From: Oligoflexia bacterium
GTDB taxonomy: Bacteria; Bdellovibrionota; Bacteriovoracia; Bacteriovoracales; Bacteriovoracaceae
NCBI GenBank assembly: GCA_015231955.1
Contig: JADGAN010000001.1
Coordinates: forward strand, 62,001-126,000
Direction of reading: 5' to 3'
DNA: 64,000 nucleotides
The position numbers and the translations under genes were made by a program. This document shows positions 58,866-64,000 of the stretch, piece by piece; the stretch's first letter is position 1; the number at the start of each line of letters is the position of its first letter. Below the pieces are notes generated by a model. The model did no database searches. It saw nothing but the letters and a program-made list of their open reading frames with translations, and was not told the DNA's origin.

Positions 58866-60272
58866 CTAAAGACGGCCCTTGATAAACTCTCGCATATTTT
58901 TACCAATGGAACCGGCACCTAATGAAAGAAAAACTGTGTTTTCCAAAATAGCATGCTCAGAAAAAACTTGAGGAAACTCTGCAAAGCTTGGAAGGTATTT
59001 TGCCATTTGTGGGTGAATCTTATTGATATCCTCCACTAATTTGATGGAAGAGATGCCTGGAAGCGGTTTTTCACTGGCGGCATAGATCGGGAGAACATAA
59101 ACTTCATCAGCATCATTGAAGCAATGAAGAAATTTTTCCCAGCACAACATGGTTCTAGTATAGCGGTGCGGTTCAAAGATCACCACAATTTTAGCACTAG
59201 CTTTTACTTTGCGTACAGTTTGAATGGCATTGGCAATTTCAGTCGGATGGTGACCATAATCGTCGATGATCTCAAGAGGGCCCGTCTTAAAGAGAAGCTC
59301 TAAGCGCCGTCCAACGCCTTTAAACTTCACGAGTGAACTCGCAATCACGAGAAACTCCAATCCTAGTTGATGAGCTACTGCAATGGCCCCTAAAGAATTT
59401 AAGACATTGTGAACTCCAGAGGTAAAAATCTTAATTTCCGTGGCCTTTTTCCCTTCAAAATAGAGATCGTACTCCGTATGGCCATCGCCATAGATAACAT
59501 TTTTTGCCTGGTAATTAGGAATTTCCTTTAACGCTTGATCTTCAATCCCAAAAGTTAACCATGGTCTTTTAATACGATTTCTAATCCGCTTAATCTCTTC
59601 GTCATGGATATTGAGAATGCAATGGCCATAAAAGGGAACTCGATTGGCAAACTTAAGAAAGGAGTGAACCAGATTTCTTTTGGTCTTATAAAAATCCAAG
59701 TGGTCATCATCAATATTGGTAATCACCGAGATAATCGGGCCTAAAAGTAAAAAAGAGCCATCCGATTCGTCGGCCTCTGCCACCAAGATATCCCCTTGCC
59801 CTACTCTTGCATGGCCACCTAAATTTTCAACAATCCCACCTATAATGTGAGTAGCATCCATTCCCGCTTCAAAAAGAATGGTCGCTAAAAAACTGGTGGT
59901 TGTGGTTTTTCCGTGTGAACCTGCTATGGCAATTCCATACTTTAAACGCATAAGCTCAGAAAGCATCTCTGCTCGCTTGATCAAGGGGATGCTTTTGCGT
60001 TTGGCCTCAAGCACTTCAGGGTTGTTTTTCAAATCTACTGCCGAGCTATATACTACCACAGTTGGATGATCCACATTCTCAGCAGCGTGTCCAAGTTTGA
60101 TCTCTGCTCCCAGCTCTCTTAGTTTTAAAATATTTTGATTAACTGATAAATCGGAACCCGACACAGAGTAGTTTAGTCGCAACAAAATCTCTGCGATTCC
60201 ACTCATCCCAATGCCACCAATTCCAATGAAGTGTACTTTAATTAACTTTGATTGAATGTTACTGTTAAACAT
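58866..60272 (-). CDS. murC: UDP-N-acetylmuramate-L-alanine ligase
   Basis: A 468-residue Mur ligase. N-terminal HFIGIGGIGMSGIAE, central P-loop IAGSHGKTTTTSFLA, EADESDGSFLLL, VITNIDDDHLDFY with the metal His, and C-terminal IIDDYGHHPTEIANAI and EPHRYTR. It adds L-Ala to UDP-MurNAc. The ATG at 60272 overlaps the murG stop by eight bases. Confidence 0.96.
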   Translation of the reverse strand: MFNSNIQSKLIKVHFIGIGGIGMSGIAEILLRLNYSVSGSDLSVNQNILKLRELGAEIKLGHAAENVDHPTVVVYSSAVDLKNNPEVLEAKRKSIPLIKRAEMLSELMRLKYGIAIAGSHGKTTTTSFLATILFEAGMDATHIIGGIVENLGGHARVGQGDILVAEADESDGSFLLLGPIISVITNIDDDHLDFYKTKRNLVHSFLKFANRVPFYGHCILNIHDEEIKRIRNRIKRPWLTFGIEDQALKEIPNYQAKNVIYGDGHTEYDLYFEGKKATEIKIFTSGVHNVLNSLGAIAVAHQLGLEFLVIASSLVKFKGVGRRLELLFKTGPLEIIDDYGHHPTEIANAIQTVRKVKASAKIVVIFEPHRYTRTMLCWEKFLHCFNDADEVYVLPIYAASEKPLPGISSIKLVEDINKIHPQMAKYLPSFAEFPQVFSEHAILENTVFLSLGAGSIGKNMREFIKGRL

Positions 60273-61479
60273 GACGTATAATCTCACGAAAGATAATGTC
60301 TTCAGGAAGATTGGCGAGGATCACTCTTCGACTATCGTCCCCTTTGTTGCTTCCCTGATCGTCGTAATTCACTTTGCGTTCCCAAACGGTATCAAGGATT
60401 TCGCATAATCGCTTAAAATTATCTTTCTGTAAACCATTACAATCCTCTATGTAAACAGGAAAAAGCGCCTCTTCAGCAAGCGACCGCGCATTGTAAAATT
60501 GGTGCCGATCCTTATGGTGAGGATAGGGTATTAAAATCACAGGTACCCCGACTATTCTTAGCTCTGATATACTGGAAGCACCTGAACGACAGACAATAAG
60601 ATCAGCAAAACTATACTCTTTTGCCATATCATCAAAATACTCATGCTGAGAGTAACTTAACACTCCTTCGGCCAGTGCTTTGGTAAGCGCCTGCTTTTGA
60701 TCATCCTCCATTTTATACTCGCGCCCGGTTTGATGCCGAAGCTGCAAATGATACTCCCCACGCAAATTGCTAATACTCTTTCCTCGAGTAGCAAAATCGA
60801 TCATACAATCATTAATCGATTTCGCACCTAAACTCCCTCCAAAAACCAAAACCCTGATTACCTTTTCAAGCAGTCGTTGTGGTTTTTGTGCTAAATTTTC
60901 TTTTGCAAATTTTACAATATCTTTACGAATAGGATTTCCACTAATTACTACCTTTTTTAAGCAAAAGAAGGGAACCCCTTTGGTGTGCTTAAAGTGTAAG
61001 AAAATTTTTTTAGAGAACAAAGAGAGAATTTTGTTCGTTAATCCCAAGACTGCATTTTGTTCGATAACATAGACTGGTATCCTTAAAAGATAGGCAGATA
61101 AAAGTACAGGACCACACACATATCCTCCAGCACCAATTGCCACTGCTGGGCGCTGTCGCATAAGAATAAACAAGACTTGCATCATGGAGAGTAGATTTTT
61201 AACGATTGAACTGATCACCTTTAGAGGATTTTTGTATTTAAGGGGCATGGAATCGAGATAAACAGCATTTAACCCTTGGTGGAGCTTGTAATCAAGATGG
61301 CGCTTGCCTGTGAAGTAGAGGGTGCCAATCGACTCATCCTTGAACTTCTCCCCTAACGCTAAAGCTGTATTAATATGTCCGGCAGTTCCCCCTGAAACTA
61401 AAACTGCCAGGCGCTTTTTTTTATTTGAATTCTTCGACAATGATTGTGTTTGTGGTTGCGATTGCAGTCTCGTTGTCAT
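60265..61479 (-). CDS. murG: UDP-GlcNAc:lipid I glycosyltransferase MurG
   Basis: A 404-residue GT28 enzyme, longer than E. coli MurG (355). LVSGGTAGHINTALAL is the first Gly-rich loop (about residues 28-43), GAGGYVCGPVLLSAYLL the second, ISGNPIR and VFGGSLGAKSIND mark the interdomain, and ICRSGASSISELRIVGVPVILIPYPHHKDRHQ is the UDP-GlcNAc site. It makes lipid II. The first 20 residues are Ser/Gln-rich. Its 5' end overlaps ftsW by 59 bases; AAGGAA precedes the ATG. Confidence 0.95.
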   Translation of the reverse strand: MTTRLQSQPQTQSLSKNSNKKKRLAVLVSGGTAGHINTALALGEKFKDESIGTLYFTGKRHLDYKLHQGLNAVYLDSMPLKYKNPLKVISSIVKNLLSMMQVLFILMRQRPAVAIGAGGYVCGPVLLSAYLLRIPVYVIEQNAVLGLTNKILSLFSKKIFLHFKHTKGVPFFCLKKVVISGNPIRKDIVKFAKENLAQKPQRLLEKVIRVLVFGGSLGAKSINDCMIDFATRGKSISNLRGEYHLQLRHQTGREYKMEDDQKQALTKALAEGVLSYSQHEYFDDMAKEYSFADLIVCRSGASSISELRIVGVPVILIPYPHHKDRHQFYNARSLAEEALFPVYIEDCNGLQKDNFKRLCEILDTVWERKVNYDDQGSNKGDDSRRVILANLPEDIIFREIIRHV

Positions 61480-62683
61480 GCAGTTCTTCCTTTTTCTCTT
61501 CCGTCTCTTTTTTTACTTCATTTTTTTTCTCTTGATCCGTGAACTTCTCTGATGCCAGCTCTTCGCGATCCCTAATCTCTTTAAGGTTCATCTTAAAGGC
61601 AGAGATAACTAATCCAATGGCCAAACAATTAGAGATTAAGGAGGATCCTCCATAGCTGATGAAAGGAAGGTTTAAACCTTTTGTTGGCAGGAGTCCTAAA
61701 ACCACGCCCATATTTAAAAACGCCTGCAAGGCCAATATAAACGTTACTGCAGATATAAAAATCATCACCACTCGATTTTGTGCACGAATAGCAAGCTTAA
61801 ACCCAAAGTAGGCCAAGATAATAAAGGCAACTACTAAAATAAAAATACCAATAAACCCCAACTCCTCTCCCACCACGCTAAAGATAAAGTCGTTGTGTGC
61901 TTCAGGAAGGTACAAGAGTTTCTCATCCCCATTGGCAAGGCCCTTGCCAAAAATCCCTCCATTGGCCAGCGCTAAATAAGACTGAATAATTTGAAATCCC
62001 GATTTTTGAGGATCTTTCCATGGGTCAAGAAAGGTCAAAATCCTCTGCATGCGATAAGGGGCCATGAAAATTAAAAACGCTCCCGCCACTACCCCTGAAA
62101 AAAGAAAGCTATACAAAATTTTTCGAGGAAAGGAACTCATTAAGCAGATAAAAGCAATCACCAAAAGACAGACAGCAAACATCCCAAAATCGGGCTGCAA
62201 CGTCAAAATGCCTAAAGGTGCGGCCACTACCAACAAAAGGTTAACTCGTTCCGATAACTTCATGGAATAAAAATTTTCAAACAAATAAATTGTAGGAAAG
62301 AGCAAAAGATATTTTGAAAACTCTCCTGGTTGCAAATTAAAACCACCAACTGAAAGCCAGCGGTGAGCACCCTTTACCTGCATTCCAACACCGGGGATAA
62401 AGGTAAGCAACAGCAAAACAATGACAAAGATGCCGATCTTCATCCCATGCTTGTAGATAAAATTAAAACTAAGTTTGCTTGCCAGAAAGATTGCTAGTGG
62501 CCCTAATAGAGCAAACAACAATTGCCGTACAAAAAAATACCTAGAGTTATTAAAGGCCTCTTTAGCATAGATGAAACTAGAGGAGTAGACCATCACTACA
62601 CCAAAAAAGATCAGTAGCAACACTAAAATCACCAAATAGCGAATCGTCTTTTCCTCGGAAAGCTTATCACCTACTGTTGCCAT
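61421..62683 (-). CDS. ftsW: Septal SEDS glycosyltransferase FtsW
   Basis: A 420-residue SEDS protein with about ten membrane segments. VMVYSSSFIYAKEAF, HRWLSVGGFNLQPGEFSKYLL and LLPTKGLNLPFISYGGSSLISN are the hallmark boxes, the Asp in FQPSE-like position and the final PxxSYGGSS motif included. A cytoplasmic tail of about 50 charged residues follows (KNEVKKETEEKKEELH), longer than usual. Position between murD and murG is standard. Confidence 0.95.
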   Translation of the reverse strand: MATVGDKLSEEKTIRYLVILVLLLIFFGVVMVYSSSFIYAKEAFNNSRYFFVRQLLFALLGPLAIFLASKLSFNFIYKHGMKIGIFVIVLLLLTFIPGVGMQVKGAHRWLSVGGFNLQPGEFSKYLLLFPTIYLFENFYSMKLSERVNLLLVVAAPLGILTLQPDFGMFAVCLLVIAFICLMSSFPRKILYSFLFSGVVAGAFLIFMAPYRMQRILTFLDPWKDPQKSGFQIIQSYLALANGGIFGKGLANGDEKLLYLPEAHNDFIFSVVGEELGFIGIFILVVAFIILAYFGFKLAIRAQNRVVMIFISAVTFILALQAFLNMGVVLGLLPTKGLNLPFISYGGSSLISNCLAIGLVISAFKMNLKEIRDREELASEKFTDQEKKNEVKKETEEKKEELHDNETAIATTNTIIVEEFK

Positions 62684-62691
62684 ACTTTCTC

Positions 62692-64000
62692 TTAAAGTTG
62701 ATAGACCAACTTTTTAAAATAGTTTCCTCTCTCTTCGTAATCCCTAAAGATATCGGTACTGCGATTTCCTGGTGATAATAAAATTACATCCCCGGTACGC
62801 GATTTTTGATAGGCAAGCAGCACCGACTCCTCAAAGGAACCTACCAAAAATGTTTGCGTAGCATCACCAATAGAGCGATTAATTCTCTCCTTGCTCTCAC
62901 CCACTAACACCAATACTCTTGCCTTCTCTTTCAAAACATCGAAGAAAGGATCGTAAACTTGATCGGTCTCCTTCCCTCCTGCAATCAAGATCACCTCTCC
63001 TTTAAAAGCGTTGAGAGAAGTGGTCATCTCCTCCATGGTTTCTGATTTTGAATCATTATAAAAACAGACACCATTTTTCTCCATTACAAACTCTAAACGG
63101 TGAGGAATCCCTGGAAATTTTTCTATACACGTTTGAATAGCATTATCAGATATTTTAAGCGCCTTGCACGCAGAAATGGCCGCAAGCAAATTCTCTCGAT
63201 TATTCTCACCAACAATTCTCATCTTAGAAACAATAAACTCTGAATGGCAGTGAATGTTGGAATGAATTCTTCGATCATGAAAATGTGTCCCCTGAATTTG
63301 ATGAATTACTCCTTGATTGATAAATGATTTTCGAGAATACCAGTAAACTTGCGCTTGTAAATTACTAAAGAGGGAGTTGTTGTAGAGTTTATCAAAGTTG
63401 ACAATCAAGTATTCACTATCTCCGAGACCTTTTAGAATCGACAACTTAGTCTCCAGGTACTCATTAAAACTTTTAAATCGTCGTTCAGGATACCGTTCCC
63501 CAATATTAGTAAAGACCACCATCATGGGTTTTAGCGCAGAATATTGTTGCAGCTCTAGCGCAGAGACCTCGACCACTACATAGTCCACGCTCTTGTCTTG
63601 CCCTTGCGACCATAGATTGATAAAAGGATTATCCCCTGAACCGCCTACAAAAACATTTTTCCCTTCTAATCTTAAAGCATGTCCGATCATATGCGTGACC
63701 GTGGTTCGCCCAAAACTTCCACACACAACAATGGTGGGCTTATTACAAAGTTTATGCGCTAATTCCAATTGGCAATAAACCTCTTTTCCATGTTCTCTGG
63801 CCAATTCGAGTTGTGGGAGTTTGGGGTTTACAGAAGAGCTATAGACAACAACATCGGCATCAAGAAAATCTTCATCACGATGCTCACCAAACGTCATCTC
63901 AGGAACAGGCTTAAACTTCTTTAAACGTTTAATCCCCTTATTCAACTCAAAGATGGGCTTCACATCGGTAACCTTAACATCACACTCTAGTTGGTTGAAA
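62692..64000 (-). CDS. murD: MurD-like UDP-MurNAc-L-Ala:D-Glu ligase, N-terminus outside window
   Basis: The frame is open to the right edge, so the extreme N-terminus is missing; a VTD segment near the edge is where MurD has its first nucleotide-like strand. The Mur-ligase order is kept: VVVYSSSVNPKLPQLELAR, VVVEVSALELQQYS, YLETKLSIL with the carbamylated Lys position, HRLEFVMEKNGVCFYNDSK and IAGGKETD. But the P-loop is CGSFGRTTVTH, with Arg where the ligase family has Lys (GTNGKTT or GSNGKS), and the LNVTEDHMDRY box is replaced by TNIGERYPERRF, losing the His. It may be an atypical enzyme or a diverged paralogue. Gene order (murD-ftsW-murG-murC) argues for murD. Confidence 0.8.
   Translation of the reverse strand, partial: FNQLECDVKVTDVKPIFELNKGIKRLKKFKPVPEMTFGEHRDEDFLDADVVVYSSSVNPKLPQLELAREHGKEVYCQLELAHKLCNKPTIVVCGSFGRTTVTHMIGHALRLEGKNVFVGGSGDNPFINLWSQGQDKSVDYVVVEVSALELQQYSALKPMMVVFTNIGERYPERRFKSFNEYLETKLSILKGLGDSEYLIVNFDKLYNNSLFSNLQAQVYWYSRKSFINQGVIHQIQGTHFHDRRIHSNIHCHSEFIVSKMRIVGENNRENLLAAISACKALKISDNAIQTCIEKFPGIPHRLEFVMEKNGVCFYNDSKSETMEEMTTSLNAFKGEVILIAGGKETDQVYDPFFDVLKEKARVLVLVGESKERINRSIGDATQTFLVGSFEESVLLAYQKSRTGDVILLSPGNRSTDIFRDYEERGNYFKKLVYQL

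Follow-up and report, generated by a model that had tools for sequence, protein, structure and literature searches.

A probable MurD-derived pseudoenzyme fixed in the division and cell wall cluster of Bacteriovoracia

We analysed a 64,000-nucleotide stretch of an Oligoflexia bacterium genome (GCA_015231955.1, contig JADGAN010000001.1, positions 62,001 to 126,000; G000:C26:62001-126000), hereafter the window; gene-level comparisons drew on the whole genome. One end of the window holds a murD-like gene of the division and cell wall (dcw) cluster with Arg in place of the P-loop Lys, which we call MurD*. It probably encodes a MurD-derived pseudoenzyme that is fixed in Bacteriovoracia (Bdellovibrionota), a class of predatory bacteria, and kept for a non-catalytic role, with D-glutamate (D-Glu) addition left to a second, unlinked MurD. 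Judged by its residues, MurD* is very probably inactive as a D-Glu ligase, and it is likewise highly probable that the MurD reaction is carried out by the second gene.

MurD is regarded as a universal essential enzyme and a drug target. Annotation pipelines call the dcw copy murD, and MurD* passes the curated MurD cut-off although some reaction-defining residues are missing. Should MurD* be a pseudoenzyme, an entire bacterial class retains a Mur ligase solely for a structural or regulatory job. This would be a clean natural split of the catalytic from the proposed scaffolding roles, and would make the long-discussed cytoplasmic Mur/MraY complex testable. The finding also indicates which of the two MurDs to target in studies of Bacteriovorax cell-wall synthesis. 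A search limited to open-access literature for pseudo-MurD, MurD in Bdellovibrionota and dead Mur ligases returned nothing relevant.

MurD* is a full-length MurD homologue

The host genome belongs to Bacteriovoracia, its closest named relatives being Bacteriovoracaceae, Halobacteriovoraceae and Oligoflexia assemblies at 61–75% identity. The minus-strand frame at 62692–63999 is open and encodes ...IVVCGSFGRTTVTHM...; MurD* is truncated at the window edge, with 71 further bases outside. The full gene occupies G000:C26:124692-126071 on the minus strand, with a GTG start and 459 codons (459 amino acids).

MurD* scores 296 bits against the curated equivalog TIGR01087, above its cut-off of 211.95, and matches the Pfam MurD-like N, middle and C domains. 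An AlphaFold2 prediction built from 14 sequences (predicted local distance difference test, pLDDT, 81; predicted template modelling score, pTM, 0.76) has the three-domain Mur ligase fold, and the top Protein Data Bank (PDB) matches of this model are all MurD (3lk7 best, then 2uag and others). MurD* is therefore a full-length MurD homologue, and it carries the substitutions named in an earlier note on this DNA.

Active-site residues of MurD* and its orthologues

MurD ligases transfer phosphate from Mg-ATP to the carboxylate of UDP-N-acetylmuramoyl-L-alanine, which is then captured by D-Glu. Residue roles in MurD* were assigned after the established structural work on E. coli MurD, and E. coli numbering is used for the survey. 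The survey covered 85 distinct Bacteriovoracia orthologues, drawn from 100 genomes and the named relatives; comparison sets were 50 second copies of the class, 29 single-copy MurDs of the phylum and 20 dcw MurDs from outside the class. Most genomes are metagenome assemblies, and the 85 orthologues share ancestry, so counts represent non-independent events. The relevant features of MurD*, all on the minus strand, are as follows.

62692..64000, minus: MurD*, 3' 435 codons, from the open reading frame and the TIGR01087 match
63697..63720, minus: P-loop GSFGRTTV, residues 118–125; Arg122 replaces E. coli K115
63475..63510, minus: TNIGERYPERRF, residues 188–199, in place of the DHMDRY box; Y194 replaces the Mg-ligand H183
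63445..63447, minus: Lys209, equivalent to the carbamylated K198 of E. coli; kept
63229..63345, minus: class-specific conserved segment YWYSRKSF...QGTHFHDRRIHSNIHCHSEFIV, residues 243–281; H263 and H265 invariant
63190..63204, minus: NNREN, residues 290–294; adenine-side N268 and N271 kept, H267 lost
63097..63102, minus: H324 R325, aligned with E. coli H301 R302; kept
63040..63057, minus: NDSKSE, residues 339–344; D317 and K319 retained, Glu (E344) in place of T321
62965..62967, minus: T369 at the position of the D-Glu-binding K348

The Arg122 codon is CGA at 63706–63708 (63708–63706 as read on the minus strand), in the context C-GSFGR-TT. The substitution seen in the earlier note proves to be a property of the class, with Arg in 85/85 orthologues and Lys at K115 in none. 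Lys occupies the position in every second copy (50/50), single-copy phylum MurD (29/29) and dcw MurD outside the class (20/20). Six codons specify the Arg, from CGA/CGC/CGT/CGG in 39 orthologues and AGA/AGG in 46. Because both codon boxes (CGN and AGR) are used, the sequences indicate that the P-loop Arg is maintained by selection.

Loss of the DHMDRY-type box, also claimed earlier on the strength of GERYPERRF, is equally general. MurD* reads TN(I)GERYPERRF where MurDs carry TNxxxDHxDRY, and the H183 position holds His in 0/85 orthologues; it is freely variable (Y, N, F, T, V, M, P), with Tyr in MurD*. MurD cannot work without the carbamylated Lys, as described together with the invariant residue set (PMC3060825). 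The earlier statement that this Lys and the NDSK box are kept is correct for MurD* itself (K209, NDSK) but does not hold class-wide for K198, which is Lys in 54/85 orthologues and replaced by A, S, C or Q in 31/85.

Other positions divide between retention and loss. Those retained include G111 and G114 (85/85 each), E157, N271, D317 and K319 (84/85 each), and N268 and R302 (83/85 each), while H267 survives in only 2/85 and N138 in 1/85, with Thr in 82/85. The H301 position is Asn in 13/85, and that of S415 is Ser in 44/85 and Ala or Gly in 41/85. At the position of T321, a D-Glu contact in the E. coli enzyme, Thr is found in 7/85 and Glu in 78/85. No orthologue has Lys at K348 (0/85), a position that is also variable among canonical MurDs (18/29). 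The second copies (50/50) and the single-copy MurDs (29/29) all carry K115, E157, H183, K198, H267, R302, D317, K319 and T321. From this residue table, phosphate-transfer chemistry and the D-Glu pocket appear to be gone across the MurD* clade, with much of the nucleotide-contacting frame kept. We take MurD* to be inactive as a D-Glu ligase because both halves of the site, phosphate transfer and D-Glu capture, are altered in every orthologue.

The class-specific segment follows the pattern WYSR..S....G....QGTHFHxRRIHSNxxxHSEFxV. Among orthologues H263 and H265 are invariant and H270 and H276 nearly so, and the segment is predicted to form three short strands (261–265, 268–271 and 277–280).

A second MurD with an intact catalytic set

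The earlier note had proposed a genome-wide search for a second murD, and one was found. A Mur ligase middle-domain search of the whole genome returned six places: murEF (two domains), murC, MurD*, an Mpl-like gene and the second MurD. The last (P0002; G000:C37:170288-171661, L239:9989-11365) is unlinked to the dcw cluster and lies above the TIGR01087 cut-off. Its motifs (GTNGKTT, LSSFQLE, SHQERY, the carbamate Lys and NDAKST) make up an intact catalytic set, and all of MurC, MurE, MurF, the Mpl-like protein and the second MurD of this genome have GKT/S P-loops. The Mpl-like ligase (G000:C37:250029-250562, L009:484-1971) has a canonical P-loop and scores 267 bits against an mpl cut-off of 389.

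Copy number was counted as TIGR01087 matches at E ≤ 1e-40 over 100 class genomes. At least two matches were found in 92/100, including two genomes with one gene in pieces. The other eight comprise three with the second copy only, two with MurD* only, one (G011) with MurD* and a fragment of the second copy, and two with fragments only, the pattern expected from fragmented assemblies. A glutamate racemase scores above its cut-off at G000:C44, so D-Glu is available. The pathway very probably runs through the second gene, because this racemase occurs together with a MurD that retains its catalytic residues. Of the two options offered in the earlier note, an alternative ATP-binding geometry or an impaired copy beside a second MurD, it is thus the latter that agrees with the data, since a MurD with an intact catalytic set accompanies MurD* in almost every class genome.

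Gene context around the second MurD is conserved in 6/8 genomes examined and differs in this genome and a close relative. In these two, a 4'-phosphopantetheinyl transferase family gene (L239:9112-9945) lies divergently beside the second murD, and such a gene is found near the second murD in two other loci.

Selection, gene order and phylogeny

Mean pairwise identity across the class is 70% for MurD* versus 40% for the second copy, and the MurD* reading frame is intact in essentially every class genome. The ratio of nonsynonymous to synonymous change (dN/dS) is about 0.01–0.04 in most close pairs with estimable dS; in the closest pairs dN is 0.009–0.04 and dS about 0.5–3, and dS values >1 are near saturation, making the ratio rough, yet it is far below 1 throughout. 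Against 13 named relatives, the median identity of this genome is 65% for MurD*, 62% for MraY, 50% each for MurC, FtsW and RsmH, 47% for FtsI and 40% for MurG. MurD* and MraY are thus the best conserved of the cluster proteins compared. A control pair (G106, G140) from family f3, whose dcw copy retains the catalytic set, has identities of 80% for MurD and 75% for MraY; because MurD and MraY are similarly close there, the identity level of MurD* is normal for a working MurD, and MurD* appears to be constrained as tightly as one.

Gene order around MurD* is equally constant. Immediately upstream lies mraY in all named loci (13/13), even where the rest of the cluster is broken or interrupted, and it adjoins MurD* in 48/48 additional loci (some being copies of the same genomes), or 61/61 overall. 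Directly 3' of MurD* is ftsW in 46/48 loci with 1.5 kb flanks.

In a MurD tree from a quick search, MurD* forms a single clade (support 100) within the dcw MurDs of the phylum. Its stem is 0.97 changes per site long, and inner branches are mostly 0.03–0.3. A long stem followed by short branches suggests a burst of change succeeded by constraint, the pattern that a shift in function would be expected to leave.

Proposed role and alternative explanations

MurD* combines the loss of catalytic residues with retained homology and fold and with purifying selection, features expected of a pseudoenzyme. We propose that in the ancestor of Bacteriovoracia a vertically inherited dcw MurD lost D-Glu ligase chemistry and afterwards became fixed in a non-catalytic role, with the second, unlinked MurD adding D-Glu. 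The Arg P-loop and the adenine and ribose residues may let MurD* still hold a nucleotide or UDP-precursor, perhaps as a signal, and the protein would sit in the cytoplasmic Mur/MraY assembly as a scaffold or ligand-gated regulator. A role in this assembly is suggested because of the strict conservation, the constant mraY neighbour, the invariant Arg in a kept P-loop and the nucleotide-side residues. Complexes of Mur ligases with MurG, MraY and MreB have been reported (PMC6420597), which makes it plausible that a ligase could be retained purely as a member of such a complex. Scaffolding or regulation in a MraY/Mur complex is nonetheless speculative, a possibility to which we give somewhat less than even weight. 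More doubtful is a specific version, in which MurD* would be the founding member of a clade-wide, non-catalytic regulator derived from a Mur ligase, binding nucleotide or UDP-precursor through the Arg P-loop, docking on MraY/MurG through the His-rich segment and gating lipid I synthesis (e.g., during filament growth in prey).

Several observations count against a non-catalytic MurD*. Conservation by itself is no proof of a new role, given the f3 control. The retention of E157, R302, D317, K319 and, in the MurD* of this genome, K198 leaves room for residual or altered catalysis. The order mraY-murD-ftsW is ancestral in the phylum. Finally, two genomes (G052 and G064) have MurD* without a second MurD, although both are in 220–310 contigs and the absence is therefore unproven.

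Catalysis could have persisted in a rebuilt site, with Arg serving for the P-loop Lys and a pocket (T321E, no K348) suited to some other substrate, either an amino acid that is basic or uncharged or a different UDP-muramoyl species. Such a ligase would be in keeping with the retention of E157, N268, N271, R302, D317, K319 and both P-loop glycines in >95% of orthologues, with an invariant and selected P-loop Arg, low dN/dS and the canonical dcw position. However, the Mg-ligand His is gone in 85/85 and its position varies freely, unlike a redesigned catalytic site, and the replacements at K198 (A/S/C/Q), H301 (Asn) and S415 (Ala/Gly) amount to variation at catalytic positions within one tight clade that is hard to square with a single conserved chemistry. 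We consider a rebuilt ligase quite improbable. It is also unlikely that MurD* acts as a dead paralogue that binds, activates or stabilises the second MurD. The two genes constantly co-occur, and there are precedents in the trypanosomatid prozyme (PMC5201418) and a dead deoxyhypusine synthase subunit (PMC3663545), but the second MurD evolves fast, does not show a correspondingly conserved interface and is unlinked, in differing gene contexts. Moreover, f3 genomes also retain two copies though both look active.

A decaying relic, in which the dcw copy is being lost after takeover by the second MurD and its changes reflect relaxed drift, is very improbable. The presence of that second MurD and the free variation at H183, K198 and S415 would suit it. 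Decay is nevertheless refuted by the very low dN/dS and by conservation, with an intact frame nearly everywhere, high class-wide identity and new invariant residues. The dispensability implied by the earlier note is likewise contradicted by strong purifying selection on MurD*, by its higher conservation relative to the active-looking copy and by conserved motifs of its own. An error at the CGA codon, whether in sequencing (which that note had named as a possible refutation) or in assembly, has nothing in its favour and a negligible probability; Arg in 85/85 distinct class sequences, through six codons, excludes it.

Comparison with known systems

MurD* shares with canonical MurD (E. coli 1UAG/2UAG, S. 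agalactiae 3LK7) its full-length homology, three-domain fold, mraY-murD-ftsW position and much of the nucleotide-contacting set. It differs in the P-loop Lys to Arg change, the lost Mg-ligand His and T321/K348 pocket, a carbamate Lys that is unconserved in the clade and an added, conserved His-rich segment. The second Bacteriovoracia MurD is its same-genome paralogue, with intact catalytic residues, a place outside the dcw cluster and fast evolution.

Plant MurE-like proteins are not known to keep the ligase role. The second MurE of moss (PMC9434261) and a MurE-like chain in plastid RNA polymerase (PDB 8w9z_N) are Mur ligase homologues outside peptidoglycan precursor synthesis, and share with MurD* the idea of repurposing. 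They are, however, MurE rather than MurD and belong to a eukaryotic organelle and a transcription complex. The S-adenosylmethionine decarboxylase (AdoMetDC) prozyme (PMC5201418) and dead deoxyhypusine synthase (PMC3663545) resemble MurD* as conserved, catalytically dead-looking paralogues beside an active one. Those dead paralogues form heteromers in which they activate their live partner, whereas such a link would be hypothetical for MurD*, which is the more conserved of its pair.

Xanthomonas MurD2 adds L-Glu and is set apart by D182E, K348R, A414P and L416F; the MurD2/MurL pathway operates in genomes described as unable to form D-Glu (PMC8788868). MurD2 and MurD* are both MurD paralogues with an altered Glu pocket, but MurD2 is catalytic and some catalytic residues are lost from MurD*. 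The second copies of the class share three of the four signature residues (K348R in 50/50, A414P in 49/50 and L416F in 48/50), and Streptococcus MurD 3lk7 likewise has Arg at the K348 position. At D182, however, they have N, S, T or H and never Glu, and a glutamate racemase is encoded here, so identification of the second copy as a strict Xanthomonas-type MurD2 is unsupported.

MurD in other Bdellovibrionota families

In family f3, a large neighbour of the class that is probably Bdellovibrionaceae, two MurD copies are the rule and the dcw copy keeps its catalytic residues. Most other families of the phylum have one MurD, with catalytic residues kept in 29/29 sampled. The hypothesis that the second copies in Bacteriovoracia and f3 arose only once is neither supported nor rejected (approximately unbiased (AU) test, p 0.50).

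Families f18, f19 and f27 (L221, L222, L223, L224 and L226) have a degenerate dcw MurD in the mraY-murD-ftsW position, with losses E157V, H183F/K/Q, K198N/M/T/Y and K319R/C/A, and also a second copy with the catalytic set. A topology joining these degenerate copies with Bacteriovoracia MurD* in one clade is not rejected (AU p 0.53). We therefore do not claim repeated independent degeneration of dcw MurDs.

One f3 genome (G141; one contig, 3.3 Mb, near-complete) has a second-type MurD only and no close MraY (best match 33%). It was considered as a natural dcw murD knock-out and dropped; because a close MraY is also missing, a gap or misassembly is possible, or an unusual partial loss of the dcw cluster.

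The dcw neighbourhood

The dcw cluster of this genome has the order rsmH, ftsI, murE-murF fusion, mraY, MurD*, ftsW, murG, murC. The genes downstream of MurD* in the window are listed below.

61421..62683, minus: ftsW, directly downstream of MurD*
60265..61479, minus: murG, same dcw cluster, from the window open reading frame and locus comparison
58866..60287, minus: murC, same dcw cluster, canonical P-loop GSHGKTTT, from the window open reading frame and profile match

Upstream, murE and murF form one fused protein of 986 amino acids (L007:9230-12190); they are seemingly separate genes in most relatives examined.
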